Shown piece by piece: positions 23,558 through 34,712 of a stretch of DNA of 64,000 nucleotides. Each line of letters opens with the position of its first letter. Position 1 is the first letter of the stretch. A program made the position numbers and the translations under genes. Source of the DNA: Candidatus Bathyarchaeota archaeon (GTDB lineage Archaea; Thermoproteota; Bathyarchaeia; Bathyarchaeales; Bathycorpusculaceae). The notes under the pieces were generated by a model. The model ran no database searches, was not told where the DNA came from, and saw nothing but the letters and a program-made list of their open reading frames with translations. Location: the NCBI GenBank assembly GCA_026014745.1, contig JAOZHS010000001.1:496001-560000 (forward strand), in the 5' to 3' direction.

Positions 23558-24001
23558 ATGAAAAAAATTATTGCCATTCAAGAAAACTGCATAGGCTGTG
23601 GACTCTGCGAAGTATACTGCACCGTGCAGCACTCCAAATCAAAGGACATAATCAAAGCCTACAACAGCGAACGCCCTAGACCCATCAGTCGCGTCCGCGT
23701 TGAACGCAACAAACCCGTATCATTCGCCATCCAATGCCGCCACTGCGACGACGCCCCCTGTGTCACCGCATGCCTAGCAGGCGCCATGACCAAAGACCCC
23801 AAAACAGGCGAAGTAATCCACAACAAAGACAAATGCATGGGTTGCTGGACCTGTGTCATGATTTGCCCCTATGGCGCCATAAAGATGGATAAAGAAGGGC
23901 ACGTCATCGCCAAATGCGACCTTTGCCAGGGATTTGACAAACCCGCATGCGTCGCCAATTGTCCTAACGAGGCTCTCATCTTCAAAGAGGTGAAACCCTA
24001 G
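23558..24001 (+). CDS. Polyferredoxin-type electron-transfer subunit (four 4Fe-4S sites)
   Basis: A 147 aa iron-sulphur protein of the HycB/CooF/DmsB type. Four cysteine groups are visible: CIGCGLCEVYC, CRHCDDAPCVTAC, CMGCWTCVMICP and CDLCQGFDKPACVANCP, enough for four [4Fe-4S] clusters. It is the first gene of the glutamate synthase operon and abuts the FAD oxidoreductase directly. It probably passes electrons between that flavoprotein, or a free ferredoxin, and the FMN subunit. Confidence 0.88.
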   Translation: MKKIIAIQENCIGCGLCEVYCTVQHSKSKDIIKAYNSERPRPISRVRVERNKPVSFAIQCRHCDDAPCVTACLAGAMTKDPKTGEVIHNKDKCMGCWTCVMICPYGAIKMDKEGHVIAKCDLCQGFDKPACVANCPNEALIFKEVKP

Positions 24002-25285
24002 ATGGCAAAATATGTCATTGTGGGCGCTTCAGCAGCAGGCGTAGGAGCAGTTGAAGCCATCCGCGAAATTGACTCAACTGGCGCAATCACAGTTATCACT
24101 GAAGAAGCCTGTGCCTACTACAGTCGACCTATGATAAGCGACTACGTAAGCGGCAAAGCTGACGTTCAGAAAATGAAATGTAAAACTGATGACTTCTTCA
24201 AAGCATATAACGCCGAAGTCTTAATCAACAAAAAAGTTACCGCCCTCAACCTTGCCGAGAAAACCCTCAGCTTAGACGGCGGAGAAAAAGTCATCTACGA
24301 GAAGCTTTTGCTTGCCACTGGCGGTAAACCCTTCGTTCCCAAGATGGAGGGCCAAGAAAAAGATGGTGTCTTCACTTTTACCACCATGGCAGATGCTCAA
24401 AGCCTTGCAGCAAAAATCGACGCAATCCACGCAAAATCTGCCGTAGTCATCGGTGCTGGCTTGATTGGGATTAGCGTCACTGAAGCCCTCACCAAACGGG
24501 GCATAAAGGTAACCGTGGTGGAGTTACAAGAGAAAATCTTAAGTTTACTCTTAGACGCAAAAGCATCAGATATGGTAGAAGCTGTAATCCGCAAGGCAGG
24601 CGTAGACTTTGCCACCGGTCAATCTGTCCAGAAAATCATCGGCACACCCGACAACGACGCAGTTGTCGGCGGAGTCATAACCACCAAGGGCACTCAGATT
24701 CCCTGCGACCTCGTAATATGCGCCATCGGCGTCATACCCCGAACAGAACTCGTCGCTGGGTCAGCTGTCAAAGTTAACCGCGGCATAGTTGTCGACAGCA
24801 CCATGCAAACCAGCCTTCCCGATGTGTACGCCAGCGGTGACGTTGCTGAAGCCTACGACTTCATCTTAAATCAAAACCGTCTCTTGCCGCTTTGGCCACT
24901 GGCAGTTCTGGAAGGTAAGGTTGCAGGCGCTAACATGGCAGGTCAGAAAGCCACCTACGCGGGCGGCACCAACATGAGCAGCCTCAAGTACTTCGGTATC
25001 CCACTGGTCTCCATAGGCAACGCCAACCCCAAACCCGACGACACAACCGTTGAAGTGATCAGCAAACTTGACGAGGTACACAATGCTTACCGAAAGTTGG
25101 TGCTTAAAGATAACGTGATCGTGGGCATGACCTTTGTTAACTGCATTGACCGTGCAGGTATTTTCTTTAATTTAATGAAGAAACAAATAAACGTAAAGAA
25201 ATTCAAGCAAGACCTGCTCCGAGACGACTTCGGCTTAGCCGTATTGCCCTCGAGTCTGGTAAAGAAAATGAGTGTGGTGCAATAA
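24002..25285 (+). CDS. FAD/NAD(P)-dependent oxidoreductase
   Basis: A 427 aa pyridine nucleotide-disulphide oxidoreductase-like flavoprotein related to rubredoxin reductase and NirB-type modules. It has an N-terminal FAD site (VGASAAGVGAVEAI), a central NAD(P) site (VIGAGLIGISVTEAL), and the C-terminal FAD-contacting DVYASGDVAEAYD. No redox-active CxxC is seen, which suggests transfer to the adjacent polyferredoxin. Its start follows the upstream stop without a gap, and the amidotransferase follows by 2 bp. It likely stands in for the usual glutamate synthase small subunit. Confidence 0.87.
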   Translation: MAKYVIVGASAAGVGAVEAIREIDSTGAITVITEEACAYYSRPMISDYVSGKADVQKMKCKTDDFFKAYNAEVLINKKVTALNLAEKTLSLDGGEKVIYEKLLLATGGKPFVPKMEGQEKDGVFTFTTMADAQSLAAKIDAIHAKSAVVIGAGLIGISVTEALTKRGIKVTVVELQEKILSLLLDAKASDMVEAVIRKAGVDFATGQSVQKIIGTPDNDAVVGGVITTKGTQIPCDLVICAIGVIPRTELVAGSAVKVNRGIVVDSTMQTSLPDVYASGDVAEAYDFILNQNRLLPLWPLAVLEGKVAGANMAGQKATYAGGTNMSSLKYFGIPLVSIGNANPKPDDTTVEVISKLDEVHNAYRKLVLKDNVIVGMTFVNCIDRAGIFFNLMKKQINVKKFKQDLLRDDFGLAVLPSSLVKKMSVVQ

Positions 25286-25287
25286 AC

Positions 25288-26400
25288 ATGGACCAAGACG
25301 ATAGAAAAATAATAAACCCCTACGGCGACGACAAAGACTTCGCAGCCTGCGGCATATTCGCCATGATGAACACCGAAGGCAAACGCTTTGGCAGCAAGGA
25401 CCCTGTGCGTGCCATGGCAAACATGCATGACCGCGGCAACGGACTCGGCGGAGGCTTCGCAGTCTACGGTATTTACCCGCAGTTCAAAGACTACTACGCT
25501 TTCCATGTCATGTACCTCAGTAAAGACGCTAAAGAAAAAACGGACCGCATCCTTGCCTCCAAGTTTGACATAGTCTACGATGAGGAGATGCAGACTAAAC
25601 CTGCCGATGTTCGTGACCCACCGCTGGTTTGGCGTTACTTCGTGGAACCCAAAAAACGTCGTCCAGAAGGGCAAAGTGAAGAGGACTATGTAATAGAAGC
25701 TGTCATGCGGGTCAACACGGAAACTGGCAAGGCTTTCATTTTCTCCAGCGGTAAAGACATGGGTGTCTTTAAAGGCGTGGGTTTTCCCGAGGACATTGCA
25801 GAGTTCTTCTGTCTTGAAGACTACCAGGGCTACCTCTGGAGTTGCCATAGTCGCTTTCCAACTAACACTCCTGGTTGGTGGGGCGGTGCGCATCCATTTA
25901 ACATCTTAGACTGGACTGTCGTCCACAACGGTGAACTCTCCAGCTACGGAATAAACCGCCGCTTCCTCGAAATGTATGGGTACAAATGCACAATGCAAAC
26001 CGACACCGAAGTCCTCGCCTACGCCGTCGACCTACTCATGCGCAGACAACACTTACCCATGAGCTTAGTCTCGCAAATCTTTGCGTCACCGCTCTGGGAA
26101 GAAATCGAAAATCTAAAACCCCCAGAAGCCCAACTGCTCACGGCACTCCGCCAAACCTACGGCAGCCTACTCATGAACGGACCCTTCGGCATCGTCATCG
26201 CTCATCATGGCGAAATGATTGGGTTAGGTGACCGCATAAAACTCCGCCCAATGGTTGCAGGTACACGCGGCGATTTCCAGTTCATCTCATCCGAAGAAGC
26301 CGCAATACGCTTAGTTTCACCCCAACTCGACAAGTTCTGGGCGCCCAGAGGCGGCGAACCCGTAGTATGCAGACTAAAAAATTTCAAAGGAGAGCTCTAA
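25288..26400 (+). CDS. gltB: Glutamate synthase, class II glutaminase subunit
   Basis: A 370 aa Ntn-type amidotransferase domain of a split archaeal glutamate synthase, releasing ammonia from glutamine. The catalytic Cys is Cys21 (AACGIFAMMN), so a 20-residue propeptide must be removed to expose the N-terminal thiol. Other conserved blocks are SCHSRFPTNTPGWWGGAHPF and VHNGELSSYG. It is followed after 1 bp by the FMN subunit, which would receive the ammonia. Confidence 0.9.
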   Translation: MDQDDRKIINPYGDDKDFAACGIFAMMNTEGKRFGSKDPVRAMANMHDRGNGLGGGFAVYGIYPQFKDYYAFHVMYLSKDAKEKTDRILASKFDIVYDEEMQTKPADVRDPPLVWRYFVEPKKRRPEGQSEEDYVIEAVMRVNTETGKAFIFSSGKDMGVFKGVGFPEDIAEFFCLEDYQGYLWSCHSRFPTNTPGWWGGAHPFNILDWTVVHNGELSSYGINRRFLEMYGYKCTMQTDTEVLAYAVDLLMRRQHLPMSLVSQIFASPLWEEIENLKPPEAQLLTALRQTYGSLLMNGPFGIVIAHHGEMIGLGDRIKLRPMVAGTRGDFQFISSEEAAIRLVSPQLDKFWAPRGGEPVVCRLKNFKGEL

Positions 26401-26401
26401 A

Positions 26402-27913
26402 ATGAAAACTTACGTCCAACCTGAATACCTAGTGGAACGCGACACGAAACGTTGCATACGCTGTAAAGTTTGCGTTAACCAATGCACATATGATACCCAC
26501 TTCTACGACGAAGAAACCGATATGATGTCTAGCAAAGACGAGAACTGTGTTAACTGTCAACGCTGCGTTACATTCTGTCCCACGCATGCTTTAACAATAA
26601 AAAAGAACCCTAACGCCAGCCGCGAAAACGCCAACTGGAACATGGAGGCAATCCGCGATATCAAAAAACAGGCTGAAAACGGCGCTGTCATCATCACCGG
26701 TATGGGCAACGACAAACCCGCCTTCACCTACTGGGACCGCCTACTCCTAAACGCCAGCCAAGTCACCAACCCCTCCATCGACCCCTTACGTGAACCCATG
26801 GAAATACGCACCTACCTCGGCGCAAAACCAGACAAACTTGAAGTAGCAAAAGAAAACGGCGAGGTAGTCCTCAAAACACAGCTAACCCCCCAGTTATGCC
26901 TCGATACGCCAATTATGTTCTCTGCGATGTCCTATGGCGCGATTAGCCTCAACGTCCACACAGCTCTCGCTCGAGCAGCCACTGAATGCGGCACCTACTG
27001 GAACACTGGCGAAGGCGGCTTAGATAAAAGCCTCTATCAATACGGCGACCACACCATCGTGCAGGTGGCGTCAGGCCGATTCGGTGTCCACCCAGAATAC
27101 CTCGATACAGGTGCAGCTGTTGAGATTAAGATTGGGCAAGGCGCAAAACCCGGCATCGGCGGACACTTACCTGGCGAAAAAGTAACCGACCCCGTCGCAA
27201 AAACCCGCATGATTCCAACAGGCAGCGACGCACTCTCACCCTACCCGCAACACGACATCTACTCAATCGAAGACCTAAGACAACTAATCTATGCCCTCAA
27301 AGAAGCCACCAACTACACCAAACCCATTTCAGTAAAAATCGCAGCGGTCCACAACGCCCCCGCCATCGCAAGCGGCATGGTTCGAGCAGGCGCAGACATA
27401 ATCGCCGTCGACGGCGTCCGCGGCGCAACCGGCGCAGCACCCAAAGTCATCCGAGACAACGTCGGCATCCCCATCGAACTAGCCTTAGCACAGATTGACC
27501 AGCGTCTCCGACAAGAAGGTATCCGCAACCACGCAGGCGTAGTGGTAGCAGGCGGCATCCGAAGCGCAGGCGACGTAGTTAAAGCCATAGCATTAGGAGC
27601 TGATGCAGTCTACATCGGTACCGCAGCACTCATCGCAATGGGCTGTACAGTTTGTCAACGTTGCTTTACTGGTAAATGTCCTTGGGGCATCGCTACTAGT
27701 GACCCTTGGATTAGCAAACGTATTAACCCCGACATCGCATCCACGCGGCTCATCAACCTCCTGCATAGCTGGAGCGTCGAAATCAAAGACATGATGGGCG
27801 GCATGGGCATCAACGCCATAGAGAGCCTACGCGGCAACCGATTGGCGCTGCGTGCTGTCGGTTTAACCAAGACTGAGCTTGAAATCTTGGGCGTTAAAAT
27901 GGCAGGAGAATAA
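26402..27913 (+). CDS. gltB: Glutamate synthase, FMN/Fe-S catalytic subunit
   Basis: A 503 aa catalytic subunit converting 2-oxoglutarate and ammonia to glutamate. An N-terminal two-cluster ferredoxin domain (CIRCKVCVNQC, CVNCQRCVTFCP) is fused to the TIM-barrel FMN domain (MSYGAISLNVHTALARA, VDGVRGATGAAP, VAGGIRSAGDVVKA). Cys residues in CTVCQRCFTGKCPWG supply the [3Fe-4S] cluster. The ferredoxin fusion is typical of archaeal split enzymes. It lies between the glutaminase and GXGXG genes. Confidence 0.92.
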   Translation: MKTYVQPEYLVERDTKRCIRCKVCVNQCTYDTHFYDEETDMMSSKDENCVNCQRCVTFCPTHALTIKKNPNASRENANWNMEAIRDIKKQAENGAVIITGMGNDKPAFTYWDRLLLNASQVTNPSIDPLREPMEIRTYLGAKPDKLEVAKENGEVVLKTQLTPQLCLDTPIMFSAMSYGAISLNVHTALARAATECGTYWNTGEGGLDKSLYQYGDHTIVQVASGRFGVHPEYLDTGAAVEIKIGQGAKPGIGGHLPGEKVTDPVAKTRMIPTGSDALSPYPQHDIYSIEDLRQLIYALKEATNYTKPISVKIAAVHNAPAIASGMVRAGADIIAVDGVRGATGAAPKVIRDNVGIPIELALAQIDQRLRQEGIRNHAGVVVAGGIRSAGDVVKAIALGADAVYIGTAALIAMGCTVCQRCFTGKCPWGIATSDPWISKRINPDIASTRLINLLHSWSVEIKDMMGGMGINAIESLRGNRLALRAVGLTKTELEILGVKMAGE

Positions 27914-27917
27914 ACAG

Positions 27918-28724
27918 ATGCAATCCCAAAACACAACCCCTCAACCAATCGACCCCAAATATGAAGCACGAATAGCCAGATTCGGCACCACCGTCAAAGT
28001 CGACGCTGAAGGACTCTACTACAAAGAACTCAACTGCCTACTCCGCCAACTCATACAAGCGGACGGCATAGAAAAACTTGAGCTCCTCAACGTATGTGGC
28101 CAACGCTACATAGGCACAGACCTCGCCACCAAACTCCAAATAGACATCTACGGTACTCCCGGCAACGACTTAGGCGCTTTCCTTAACGGTCCCAAAATCA
28201 CCGTTTATGGTAACGCACAGGACGGCTGCGGCAACACCATGAACGAAGGCGAAATCATCATCCACGGACACGCAGGCGACGTCACAGGCAACTCCATGCG
28301 GGGCGGCAGAATCTTCGTCAAAGATTACGTCGGGTACCGCGTAGGTATCCACATGAAAGAATACAAAAACAAAGTCCCCACAATCGTCATCGGCGAAACT
28401 GCAGGCGACTTCCTAGCTGAGTACATGGCAGGCGGAATTATCTTGTTGTTGGGTCTCAATCTTGGGGACTGTGAACAGTGCAAAGCTCGATTTGTAGCTA
28501 CAGGTATGCATGGCGGCGTCATCTATGAGCGCGGCGATATGCTTCGACCGGTTGCAGGCACCAAAACCTTGCCCGTCGGCAAACGTGACATGCAAGTCAT
28601 CGAGGGCTTAGTTAATCAGTACTGTAGCCATTTCGGCGGCGACCCCAAAGCTATCCTTGCAGGTAAATTCCTAAAAATCCTGCCGCTCTCCAGTCGACCC
28701 TACGCGAAACTGTTTTCGCATTAG
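27918..28724 (+). CDS. gltB: Glutamate synthase, GXGXG-domain subunit
   Basis: A 268 aa beta-helical subunit equivalent to the C-terminal domain of bacterial GltB. It has the repeated GxxGxG pattern (GNDLGAFLNGPKITVYGNA, GCGNTMNEGEIIIHG, GDVTGNSMRGGRIFVKG-like) that forms the structural spacer between the catalytic sites. ATG 27918 lies 2 bp after the FMN subunit stop. Last gene of the operon, followed by a T-rich terminator. Confidence 0.92.
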   Translation: MQSQNTTPQPIDPKYEARIARFGTTVKVDAEGLYYKELNCLLRQLIQADGIEKLELLNVCGQRYIGTDLATKLQIDIYGTPGNDLGAFLNGPKITVYGNAQDGCGNTMNEGEIIIHGHAGDVTGNSMRGGRIFVKDYVGYRVGIHMKEYKNKVPTIVIGETAGDFLAEYMAGGIILLLGLNLGDCEQCKARFVATGMHGGVIYERGDMLRPVAGTKTLPVGKRDMQVIEGLVNQYCSHFGGDPKAILAGKFLKILPLSSRPYAKLFSH

Positions 28725-29817: not shown

Positions 29818-30720
29818 ATGCTAAGTTACGCCCAACCCGAAATACAGCGGACACGCTGCACCAAACTAGTGCGGGAACACCCCTGCTATGGTGCAGATGC
29901 CCACTTCAAATTTGGCAGAGTTCACCTTCCCGTTGTTTCAGGATGCAACATAGGCTGCAACTACTGCGTCCGAAAATACGACTGCGTCAACGAGAACCGA
30001 CCAGGCGTAACCAGCAAAATCTTAACCGCACAAGAAGCCATCGAAAGAGTTCGTCAAGCAGCAAAAAGTGACCCCCGCCTACGAGTAGTGGGCATCTCTG
30101 GACCCGGAGACCCCCTAACAAGCGACGTTACCTTCGAGACCCTTCAGCTTGTCCAAGAAGAATTCCCCCACCTGCACCGCTGTGTATCCACTAACGGGTT
30201 ATTGTTGCCTCAAAAAGTCGGTGCTCTAAAATCAGTCGGAGTAACCGCATTAACCGTAACCATCAACGCCGTTGACGCTGACGTAGGCAAAAAAATCTAC
30301 TCTTTTGTGCAATACAATAATCAAACGTTGCGTGGCAAAGAAGCCTTTGAGGTTCTCAGCCAAAACCAACTTGAAGGACTCTATGCTGCTGCAAAAGCAG
30401 GTATCGTGGTCAAAGTAAACTCTGTCTATATCCCCGGTGTAAACTCCGAGCACCTCGTTGAGGTAGCAAAGATAGCCCGCGACTTAGGCGCATACATCCA
30501 CAACATCATGCCGCTTATTCCTCAGGGCAAATTCGCCAATATTAAAGCACCCGCGATGGAGGAAGTCAAAGCTCTACGCTACGCATGCGGAGATGTGATG
30601 GTGCAGTTCCATAACTGTGTCCAATGCAGAGCAGACGCTGTGGGTGTCCCAAGCGAGGAAAGCTGTGGAAAACGCTTTACAGCTTTTCAACGAACCGAAC
30701 AAAAAACTGAGGTGCCCTAA
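29818..30720 (+). CDS. nifB: Nitrogenase cofactor biosynthesis radical SAM protein NifB
   Basis: Builds the 8Fe-9S-carbide precursor of the nitrogenase cofactor from Fe-S clusters and SAM. The 300 aa form lacks the C-terminal NifX domain, as in other archaea. Motifs: HPCYGADAH, the radical SAM triad Cys43, Cys47 and Cys50 in SGCNIGCNYC, then YDCVNENRPGV, ISGPGDPL, STNGL and the C-terminal QCRADAVG. These extra cysteines hold the K-cluster irons in known NifB. It lies between nifH and nifD. Its stop touches the nifD ATG, so the two are translated together. Confidence 0.95.
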   Translation: MLSYAQPEIQRTRCTKLVREHPCYGADAHFKFGRVHLPVVSGCNIGCNYCVRKYDCVNENRPGVTSKILTAQEAIERVRQAAKSDPRLRVVGISGPGDPLTSDVTFETLQLVQEEFPHLHRCVSTNGLLLPQKVGALKSVGVTALTVTINAVDADVGKKIYSFVQYNNQTLRGKEAFEVLSQNQLEGLYAAAKAGIVVKVNSVYIPGVNSEHLVEVAKIARDLGAYIHNIMPLIPQGKFANIKAPAMEEVKALRYACGDVMVQFHNCVQCRADAVGVPSEESCGKRFTAFQRTEQKTEVP

Positions 30721-32097
30721 ATGCCCCTAATTCTTCCTGAGTGTGATAAGAAAGTTCCTGAAAGACAAAAACACATTTACCTAAAAGACATCCGTGACCC
30801 TTTCACCATCCCCGCCTGCAACATAGCAACCATCCCCGGAGACATGACCGAACGCGGATGCACCTACGCAGGCTGCCGAGGGGTGGTGGGCGGACCAGTA
30901 AAAGATGTTATCCAACTTCAGCATGGTCCCATCGGCTGCTGCTATTATCCTTGGGATGCGCGACCCCACGTTGCGACAGGCACAAACTTCCAGTTAGCCA
31001 ACGTATTCTCCACAGATCTCCGCGAACCCAACATCGTATTTGGAGGAGAAAAAAAACTCTACGACTCCATCATAGAAGCCAGCAAAGCCTTCCCCGACGC
31101 CCAAGGCGTATTTGTCTACGCGACCTGCGTGGCAGGACTCATAGGCGACGACATGGACGCCGTGGCGAAACGCGCAACCAAAGCCATAGGCAAACCCGTC
31201 GTAGCCTTCAGTTGCCCAGGTTTCCGCGGCGTAAGCCAAAGCCTAGGCCACCACGTAGGCAACGAGGTTCTCTTTAACCGCATAGTCGGCACCGAAGAAC
31301 CCGCAGAGAAAACCACCTATGACATCAACCTCGTCGGCGAATACAACATCCGAGGCGACGACTGGCTCATCCTACCCCTGCTTGAAGCCGTCGGCTTACG
31401 TGTACTGTGCACCTTTACTGGTGACTGCTCAATCCATGACATCGCCAAAATGCATGCCGCAAAACTCAACGTTATCCGATGCGCCCGCTCCGCCAAGTAC
31501 ATCGCGGATATGATGAAAGACAAATACGGGACACCCTTCGTCGAAGTTGACCTCTATGGAATACAGCAAACCGCCGATGACCTGCGTTTAGTCGCCAAGT
31601 TTTTTGGGTTAGAAGCCAAAGCTGAAGAAGTCATAGCCAAAGAACTCTCTGAAATCAAAGAGGAAATGGAGTTCTACCGCCAAAAATTCCAAGGCAAAAC
31701 CGCCATGATATACCAAGGTGGACCCCGCAGTTGGCACTGGCCCAAATTCATGGAGGAACTGGGCATGGACGTAAAGGTAGTTGCAACCACTTTTGGTCAC
31801 GAAGATGACTACGAAAAAATCGTTCGCCGCGTCAAAAACGGCACGCTTGTCATCGATAACCCCAACGCACCCGAATTCGAAGAAATGATGCTCAAATACA
31901 AACCTGACATATTCATCGCGGGCACCAAAGAAAAATACCTTGCCTACAAATACGGCGTACCCTTCCTAAACGGGCACACCTACGAGAGCAAGGGCGGCTA
32001 CATGGCGTTTAAGGGCGCAGTCAGATTTGCACGGGACATGTACAAAGCAATGTACTTGCCTTCATGGCGATTCATACGCAACACAGGAGCGCAATAG
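30721..32097 (+). CDS. nifD: Nitrogenase alpha subunit NifD (Anf/Vnf-like features)
   Basis: A 458 aa catalytic subunit. P-cluster ligands are Cys47, Cys73 and Cys136. Cofactor ligands are Cys254 (VIRCARS) and His419 (FLNGHTYE). Around the cofactor, Val55, Arg81, Gln173, His177, Arg256, Arg336 and Lys403 match Azotobacter Val70, Arg96, Gln191, His195, Arg277, Arg359 and homocitrate-anchoring Lys426. A second Cys (Cys74) follows the P-cluster Cys73. GGPRSWHW and the C-terminal VRFARDMYKAMY resemble AnfD/VnfD more than NifD. Residue mapping is by eye. The ligand set argues against CfbD or BchN-type reductases, which lack this cofactor. Confidence 0.9.
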   Translation: MPLILPECDKKVPERQKHIYLKDIRDPFTIPACNIATIPGDMTERGCTYAGCRGVVGGPVKDVIQLQHGPIGCCYYPWDARPHVATGTNFQLANVFSTDLREPNIVFGGEKKLYDSIIEASKAFPDAQGVFVYATCVAGLIGDDMDAVAKRATKAIGKPVVAFSCPGFRGVSQSLGHHVGNEVLFNRIVGTEEPAEKTTYDINLVGEYNIRGDDWLILPLLEAVGLRVLCTFTGDCSIHDIAKMHAAKLNVIRCARSAKYIADMMKDKYGTPFVEVDLYGIQQTADDLRLVAKFFGLEAKAEEVIAKELSEIKEEMEFYRQKFQGKTAMIYQGGPRSWHWPKFMEELGMDVKVVATTFGHEDDYEKIVRRVKNGTLVIDNPNAPEFEEMMLKYKPDIFIAGTKEKYLAYKYGVPFLNGHTYESKGGYMAFKGAVRFARDMYKAMYLPSWRFIRNTGAQ

Positions 32098-33440: not shown

Positions 33441-34712
33441 GTGAACTTGAAGCTGGACGATTTTTTCTTCAAATTGCCCAAACTTCAAGTCAACCCCATC
33501 ATAGACGACACCACACTCCGCGACGGTATGCAAATGCCCGGGTTAGTCGTACAACCCAACAATGCCGCCAAAATCGCAGAGCACCTTTGCAACGTCGGGG
33601 CTGAACGCCTCGAACTTTTTCATTTTCAAGAACCCGACAAAAAAGCAGCCAAACTAATCCTCAACAAAAAACTGCCCCTTCGAGTCTCAGGCTGGTGTCG
33701 AACCAACAAACAAGACATCGACAGTGCCCTCGACGCGGGCTTTGAAGAAGTCGGCATCTCGCACCCCGTTTCAGAAATTCACTTAAAAGCAAAGTGGCCC
33801 AACAAATCCCATGAGCAGCTCCTCTCTGACTTTGGGGATGTGGTAGAATATTCTGCAAAAACGCATGGTCTGCGTACTTTTGTTCATGGCGAAGATGGTA
33901 CCCGCGCTGATTGGGCTTTTGAGAAGCGACTGGTAAATTTGGCTGCGGACGCTGGAGCAGAATGCTACCGCGTCTGCGACACTGTCGGAATCGGATTGCC
34001 CCAACCATACGCGCCCTCACCAATGGGCATCCCCGCGAAACTACGCGCACTAAAAGCTGAAACTCGCATAAAATCCGTCGGTATCCATGCCCACGACGAC
34101 TTAGGCAATGCCCTCGCAAACACCCTTGCCGCTGTTTCGGCTGCCTCGGGGCTTTGGCAGCAAATCTACATAAACACTACGCTTCTGGGTATCGGAGAAC
34201 GGGCAGGCAACGCTGAAACAGAAAAAGTCCTGCTAAACCTGTATTTGCACTTCGGCGTAAAAAAGTACGCTGACAAACTTAAAAACCTAAAAGCTGCCGC
34301 CGATTACCTCAGTGAAGTCACAGGCATCAACGTCCCCGCAAAAGTAGCAATCGTCGGTAAATACAGCTTCGCACACGAATCCGGTATCCATACCTACGCT
34401 GTACTGGTTGACCCCCAGACCTACGAGCCCTACCCACCCGAACTCGTCGGCAACACGAGACGCTTATCGGTGGGGAAGCAATCGGGAAAAAACATCATCA
34501 AACACAAAATCATCGAGTTAACCGGAAAATGTCCCACCGACGAAACCTTAACCGCTTGTGTTCAAACGATAAAAGCTGTCTATGCGAAGGGCAAACGCAA
34601 ATCACTAAGTGATGAGGAATTCAAAAAGATAATTGAGAATCTCAACAAAAAACCTAAACCGCCTGTTAATCGGGACTGTATAGTTTTGGAGCACTGTGTT
34701 AGCTCCAGCTAG
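33441..34712 (+). CDS. nifV: Homocitrate synthase-like enzyme (NifV family)
   Basis: A 423 aa HMGL-family acyltransferase, presumably joining acetyl-CoA and 2-oxoglutarate to give homocitrate, the organic ligand of the nitrogenase cofactor. Motifs: DDTTLRDGMQMPG, the metal-binding HAHDDLGNA, LGIGERAGNAE and FAHESGIH. The usual RDGEQ has become RDGMQ. Start is GTG 33441, or TTG 33447, which has better spacing to AGGAG (33433-33437). Substrate specificity of this family cannot be read with certainty, so isopropylmalate or citramalate synthase remain possible. Position after nifK favours NifV. Confidence 0.8.
   Translation: MNLKLDDFFFKLPKLQVNPIIDDTTLRDGMQMPGLVVQPNNAAKIAEHLCNVGAERLELFHFQEPDKKAAKLILNKKLPLRVSGWCRTNKQDIDSALDAGFEEVGISHPVSEIHLKAKWPNKSHEQLLSDFGDVVEYSAKTHGLRTFVHGEDGTRADWAFEKRLVNLAADAGAECYRVCDTVGIGLPQPYAPSPMGIPAKLRALKAETRIKSVGIHAHDDLGNALANTLAAVSAASGLWQQIYINTTLLGIGERAGNAETEKVLLNLYLHFGVKKYADKLKNLKAAADYLSEVTGINVPAKVAIVGKYSFAHESGIHTYAVLVDPQTYEPYPPELVGNTRRLSVGKQSGKNIIKHKIIELTGKCPTDETLTACVQTIKAVYAKGKRKSLSDEEFKKIIENLNKKPKPPVNRDCIVLEHCVSSS

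Follow-up and report, generated by a model that had tools for sequence, protein, structure and literature searches.

Which metal the nitrogenase of this locus uses, and what kind of nitrogenase it is, were the questions raised by the 64,000-nucleotide stretch analysed here (the window), which comes from a 2.7 Mb Bathyarchaeia genome in three contigs. The genome's single nif cluster lies in the window and has the order nifH-nifB-nifD-nifK followed by a gene for an HMGL-family synthase, all on the plus strand and without large gaps (Table 1). A first-pass annotation had described NifD as mixing Mo-nitrogenase pocket residues with Anf/Vnf-like segments and had held that the metal (Mo, V or Fe only) cannot be assigned. 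Our analysis revealed that the unusual combination of residues characterises a clade that is already known and does not point to a hybrid enzyme whose metal is obscure. We consider it highly likely that this bathyarchaeal locus encodes a minimal Mo-nitrogenase system that belongs to the Clfx (Group IV) clade and works independently of NifEN.

Table 1. Positions of the nif cluster and of a neighbouring gene set in the window.
Feature	Position	Strand	Basis or remark
Three-gene archaeal-type glutamate synthase (GATase, synthase, GXGXG); neighbour, outside the conserved cluster	25288..28724	+	PF00310, PF01645, PF01493
nifH, nitrogenase Fe protein, 272 aa	28988..29806	+	ORF open upstream to 28856
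nifB, radical SAM maturase for the Fe8S9C precursor, 300 aa, without NifX domain	29818..30720	+	
nifD, nitrogenase alpha subunit, Clfx/Group IV clade	30721..32097	+	TIGR01862, tree, pocket residues
nifK, nitrogenase beta subunit, 456 aa	32064..33434	+	PF00148, 433 bits
nif-linked HMGL-family synthase, NifV-like by position, outside the NifV clade	33441..34712	+	PF00682, PF22617, trees

The nifD gene is an intact ORF of 458 codons whose product matched TIGR01862 at E=9.5e-175 (581 bits, above the cut-off of 486) and chain A of PDB 9spz at E=1e-152 (512 bits); there is no doubt that it matches nitrogenase alpha subunits, and chance is not the explanation. NifH exceeded the TIGR01287 cut-off (433 versus 394 bits), aligned over its full length with PDB 4wza chain E (E=9.8e-117) and has both cluster ligands, Cys94 and Cys129. 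NifB carries the CNIGCNYC motif and matched PDB 6y1x (a radical SAM domain protein) as well as 7jmb, 7bi7 and 7jma (deposited as NifB) at E<=2e-82; it matched TIGR01290 at E=2.5e-97, with a score of 326 bits that is slightly under the cut-off of 344 because the last 160 profile positions are missing. NifK matched the beta chains of PDB 9p1x and 9spz at E of about 1e-119 and contains all of the P-cluster motifs CQPIG, GCSTY, TTCLSE and NTPSY; its first ATG overlaps nifD, and a further in-frame Met occurs at about 32103. Only two PF00148 proteins, D and K, are encoded in the genome, and therefore NifE and NifN are absent from this assembly, which at 97.5% completeness could hide one in a gap.

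The same five genes occur in the same order in five related genomes, making six Bathyarchaeia genomes with that of the window, and the NifDs of these relatives are 78-86% identical to the window NifD. True NifD was found in 6 of the 257 genomes of class Bathyarchaeia, and in an even, phylum-wide sample of 398 genomes it was confined to members of the window organism's family. No PII protein is encoded in the genome for NifI/PII regulation, and the NrpR-type operator GGAAN6TTCC matched once in the window (1.35 matches expected) and nowhere near nif. Directly upstream of nif, positions 23558-28724 hold genes for a ferredoxin-like protein, a pyridine-nucleotide oxidoreductase and the split archaeal glutamate synthase, suggesting local ammonia assimilation; this gene set is not kept beside nif in relatives, none of the five having glutamate synthase genes there.

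In a maximum-likelihood tree built from 73 sequences of D subunits and NifE, the six Bathyarchaeial NifDs, two archaeal MAGs (UBA8915 and SZUA-158) and the Chloroflexota Clfx sequences formed one clade (support 96/94), whose sister was the F-Mc clade (93/83). A separate group held VnfD, AnfD and one methanobacterial sequence, and the NifDs of Rhizobium and Nitratidesulfovibrio fell outside. The window NifD is 56-59% identical to Clfx sequences, about 50% to F-Mc, 43-44% to Vnf/Anf and about 40% to rhizobial NifD. Membership of the window NifD in the Clfx clade, outside Vnf/Anf and classical Nif, is thus well supported by sequence comparison. The Bathy-6 nifHBDK genes, published in 2024 as a Mo-nitrogenase, have already been placed in this clade (PMC11697101), and our placement repeats that statement with another genome and more sequences. 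Like the Bathy-6 genes, those of the window comprise nifHBDK without nifE or nifN and cluster with Clfx, and they very probably represent the same gene family. Clfx-clade NifD is also present in archaeal MAGs L033 (SZUA-158) and L032/L073 (UBA8915, Candidatus Methanolliviera); the SZUA-158 NifD lies among Chloroflexota sequences (96/81), suggesting transfer or mis-binning.

Inspection of NifD showed where its residue mix originates. Direct reading gave C47, V55, C73, C74, R81, C136, Q173, H177, C254 and H419, and all P-cluster and cofactor ligands and examined second-shell residues are kept. Offsets from the P-cluster cysteines confirmed the first-pass equation of Arg81 and Val55 with the Mo-type Arg96 and Val70, and the remarks that Cys74 directly follows the P-cluster ligand Cys73 (Av Cys88) and that both chains are short (D 458 aa, K 456 aa) also held. 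Cys74 was rejected as an additional P-cluster ligand, since only four of the six Bathyarchaeial NifDs have Cys there and two have Ala, and it is not diagnostic because it varies within the family. The segments singled out as Anf/Vnf-like, GPIGCCYYPWDAR, GGPRSWHW and RFARDMYKAMY, are present but are not specific to Anf/Vnf, since GGPRxWHW and the FARD-x-Y segment also occur in nitrogenase 9spz and across the Clfx/F-Mc lineage. Such segments are typical of a lineage, the second major one among nitrogenases, that comprises Clfx, F-Mc, Mb-Mc, Vnf and Anf, and they therefore amount to inherited resemblance. The description of a Mo pocket mixed with Anf/Vnf segments is apt for that lineage, but there is no mixture within this protein, and a hybrid or recombinant nifD is unneeded, the segments being clade-wide. 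Because they are common to Clfx, F-Mc and PDB 9spz, they carry no metal information; where a D subunit has Anf/Vnf-looking segments, they come from an ancestor common to one half of the nitrogenase tree and say little about the metal.

McGlynn et al. (PMC3578447) list positions of the pocket at which Mo enzymes differ from V/Fe enzymes. At those examined, the window NifD has Ala50 (Av 65), Gly54 (69), Arg81 (96), Thr357 (380), Lys403 (426) and Lys405 (428), all of Mo/uncharacterised type, and the Clfx sequences show nearly letter for letter the same pattern. In contrast, VnfD and AnfD (PDB 5n6y, 8boq and 8oie), which share 43-44% identity, the common segments and a similar chain length with the window NifD, have Cys, Leu/His, Lys, Lys, Arg and Gly at these positions, and a G subunit in addition. 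The V/Fe signature (Cys65, Leu/His69, Lys96, Lys380 and Gly428) is therefore absent, the window NifD having Ala, Gly, Arg, Thr and Lys instead; position 380 is Thr, Leu or Met in the uncharacterised group and Lys in V/Fe enzymes (PMC3578447). The absence of a nearby G-subunit gene, noted in the first pass, extends to the entire genome, in which no match to AnfG/VnfG (PF03139) was found (the control, Methanosarcina acetivorans, matched); the lack of an anfG-type gene again favours Mo. Contig C3 carries a mod locus, modA-modB-ATPase (ModABC), with ModE-like and MobB-like neighbours, in which modA and modB exceed their NCBIfam cut-offs, although by itself this locus is no proof of a Mo-nitrogenase because it may serve molybdopterin enzymes.

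Several observations count against the Mo reading and bear on the improbable alternative that the enzyme is a V- or Fe-only nitrogenase, or a multi-metal acceptor, that has lost its G subunit. Along with GGPRSWHW and the N-terminal CDKxVPERQKH, the CARS motif around the cofactor ligand Cys254, which had been missed in the first pass, resembles VnfD/AnfD. CARS at this ligand is the Anf/Vnf (V/Fe) pattern of older literature, yet it is present in several Clfx members, and members of the clade differ here, having A, Q or T; the remaining resemblances extend to F-Mc sequences and PDB 9spz. NifD also scored higher on TIGR01284, a subfamily model for alternative nitrogenases whose cut-off it exceeded (561 bits), than on the canonical NifD model TIGR01282 (491 bits, below the cut-off of 654), but its scores on the VNFD and ANFD models were far under the cut-offs (TIGR01860, 467 of 823 bits; TIGR01861, 433 of 874 bits). 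In a fold search with the AlphaFold2 model of NifD (pLDDT 79.7, pTM 0.81), V and Fe proteins came out on top by a small margin, but V, Fe and Mo proteins all matched strongly (E 2.5e-46 to 5e-40), so that the search says nothing on metal; no pocket geometry was read from the model because several cofactor-facing and P-cluster loops (residues 31-57, 73-93 and 167-172) have pLDDT < 50. The pocket positions diagnostic for metal, all non-V/Fe, and the missing G gene further oppose this alternative, as do the preference of the Roseiflexus enzyme for Mo and the finding that Anf/Vnf occur only alongside a full Nif set (PMC3578447).

Less probable still, indeed very improbable, is a nitrogenase-like enzyme with another substrate, such as a methylthio-alkane or tetrapyrrole reductase, that does not fix N2. 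Diazotrophic growth of this organism is not known and nitrogenase-like proteins of such kind occur in many other Bathyarchaeia, but the clade includes a member for which N2 reduction was shown (PMC11573651). The complete retention of ligands and examined second-shell residues also argues against it. Moreover, NifD matched chain A of PDB 9d9u/9fmg, which is labelled only 'Nitrogenase' and which we take to be a methylthio-alkane reductase, at only E=2.6e-30, compared with 1e-152 for 9spz. Judged by sequence and kinship, Mo is the best metal assignment for the window nitrogenase and would be the metal used in the organism, which settles the metal question as far as sequence allows.

Roseiflexus, the hosts of the closest studied relatives of this enzyme and the comparison on which this assignment leans, are hot-spring bacteria. 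In vitro, NifHBDK of Roseiflexus sp. RS-1 constitute an N2-reducing Mo-nitrogenase that builds FeMo-co without NifEN, requires homocitrate and SAM, needs molybdate for full activity and prefers Mo (PMC11573651). Because NifDK of this same clade is Mo-dependent, the window enzyme does have close kin in a characterised clade whose metal is known, and the first-pass statement that the metal cannot be assigned was unsupported. The window system shares with that of Roseiflexus the HBDK order, the lack of NifEN, the NifD clade and the equivalents of Arg96, His442 and Cys275; it differs in its archaeal host. The Roseiflexus NifD numbering, R85 and H422 (PMC11573651), was matched by several of the Clfx sequences compared, and Clfx members mostly have CQRS where the window NifD has CARS. 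The best solved relative of the window NifD is the alpha chain of PDB 9spz/9sq3, an F-Mc clade member beside Methanothermococcus in the tree, which has the same N-terminus, GGPRxWHW, Arg96 and Val70 but is only 52% identical and has CQRS; F-Mc taxa have NifE and sometimes NifN (PMC7216921). A literature search found no purified protein from any archaeal Clfx-clade member.

Gene content, clade, pocket residues, the absence of NifEN and of a G subunit, and the presence of molybdate import genes were established directly; for Mo use and in-place maturation we infer from Roseiflexus how the window system might work. After making the Fe8S9C precursor, NifB would hand it over directly to apo-NifDK, which would act as its own maturase. 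FeMo-co would be completed in place on NifDK with NifH, molybdate taken up through ModABC, and an organic acid that may come from the nif-linked synthase, and NifH would then drive N2 reduction by the matured NifDK. Evidence for a Mo-nitrogenase based on nifHBDK alone is thereby extended to a further Bathyarchaeia genome.

NifV would usually be expected at the place in the cluster that the fifth gene occupies. The encoded protein belongs to the HMGL family, as do NifV and Re-citrate synthase, shares nif linkage with NifV and matched the homocitrate synthase PDB 6ktq at E=4e-49, but it reached only 267 bits on the NifV model TIGR02660, whose cut-off is 463. In a quick HMGL tree of 49 distinct proteins, its nearest neighbour was a paralogue from the same genome, followed by a UBA8915 protein and clostridial sequences that, by expected length and motifs and with no database label, we presume to be Re-citrate-synthase candidates; its motifs LGIGER and DTVGIG are nearer to theirs. 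It was apart from NifV of Firmicutes, cyanobacterial and proteobacterial nif clusters, in a separate Bathyarchaeial group, and the TIGR02660 score and the tree together rule out 'nifV' as a name for the gene. In each of the six genomes the synthase gene comes immediately after nifK on the 3' side, whereas none was detected there in the Clfx loci compared.

Many Bathyarchaeia carry the paralogue, whether or not they have nif. The six nif-linked synthases split from 21 chromosomal paralogues with support of 84/100, and four fixed differences distinguish the two sets. A single clade of the six was not rejected (p-AU 0.277); the root of this tree is unsure because the outgroup branches are very long. 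Since the nif-linked copies split from a widespread resident paralogue, it seems that an enzyme already present in the genome was duplicated and one copy taken into the cluster. By these comparisons the fifth gene is no true NifV; it is predicted to be a nif-linked copy that arose by duplication of a homocitrate/Re-citrate-synthase-like enzyme found across Bathyarchaeia. We did not find this in print, and searching the main text of PMC11697101 for homocitrate and citrate turned up nothing on this gene or its origin. The nitrogenase itself is of a known kind whose type is already published, and the nif-specific synthase is the point not found in print.

An organic-acid source is required, given that the Roseiflexus system had to be supplied with homocitrate in vitro (PMC11573651), and the fifth gene is likely to be the source of the cofactor acid; its position and family suggest homocitrate synthesis. 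We tentatively propose that the acid comes from a nif-dedicated Re-citrate/homocitrate-synthase-like duplicate recruited independently of NifV, so that the cofactor may carry homocitrate from a separate enzymatic source, or else citrate or another acid. It is also possible, if somewhat doubtful, that the fifth gene encodes a second citrate/isopropylmalate-type synthase for carbon metabolism and that homocitrate comes from elsewhere, which would be compatible with a Mo-nitrogenase. The low NifV score, the grouping with clostridial Re-citrate-synthase candidates and the UBA8915 homologue rather than NifV, and the kinship with a paralogue found across Bathyarchaeia regardless of nif all fit such a role. 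Its constant position directly 3' of nifK, which the glutamate synthase genes do not share, and the split from the chromosomal paralogues oppose it, and the genome already has an ordinary citrate synthase and other synthase paralogues for carbon metabolism. The ordinary citrate synthase also led us to reject the chromosomal paralogue as the cell's sole citrate synthase. If the nif-linked synthase is the true maker of the cofactor acid, it would represent a second origin of that function, within a compact five-gene set.

Other nitrogenase-like systems were seen in the genomes compared. About ten other Bathyarchaeia genomes have an open frame of 719-774 aa (L011 1195-3354 on the minus strand, L012-L020 and L200-L203), and in the four examined (L200-L203) a NifH-type Fe protein (residues 1-265) is fused to a nitrogenase-component-1-like domain (about 318-640), with a second component-1-like gene coming next. 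BtuCDF/FecCD-type ABC transporter-like genes lie upstream in three of these loci and cobalamin-synthesis-like genes lie near in two; the fused protein is possibly a tetrapyrrole or corrinoid reductase. Eight F-Mc-type nifD genes (L046, L047, L049, L053, L055, L057, L064 and L078, including a Thermodesulfobacteriales MAG) have an in-frame TGA at the codon for the P-cluster ligand Cys62, with the frame open beyond and TGC/TGT in relatives. These look like the selenocysteine NifD described in three species (PMC3760896) and listed in PMC13188914. Finally, a distant Bathyarchaeia genome (G216; L027 4563-9011) has a separate cluster of D-like, K-like, H-like and B-like genes, a nitrogenase-like system whose D-like protein is 30% identical to the window NifD.
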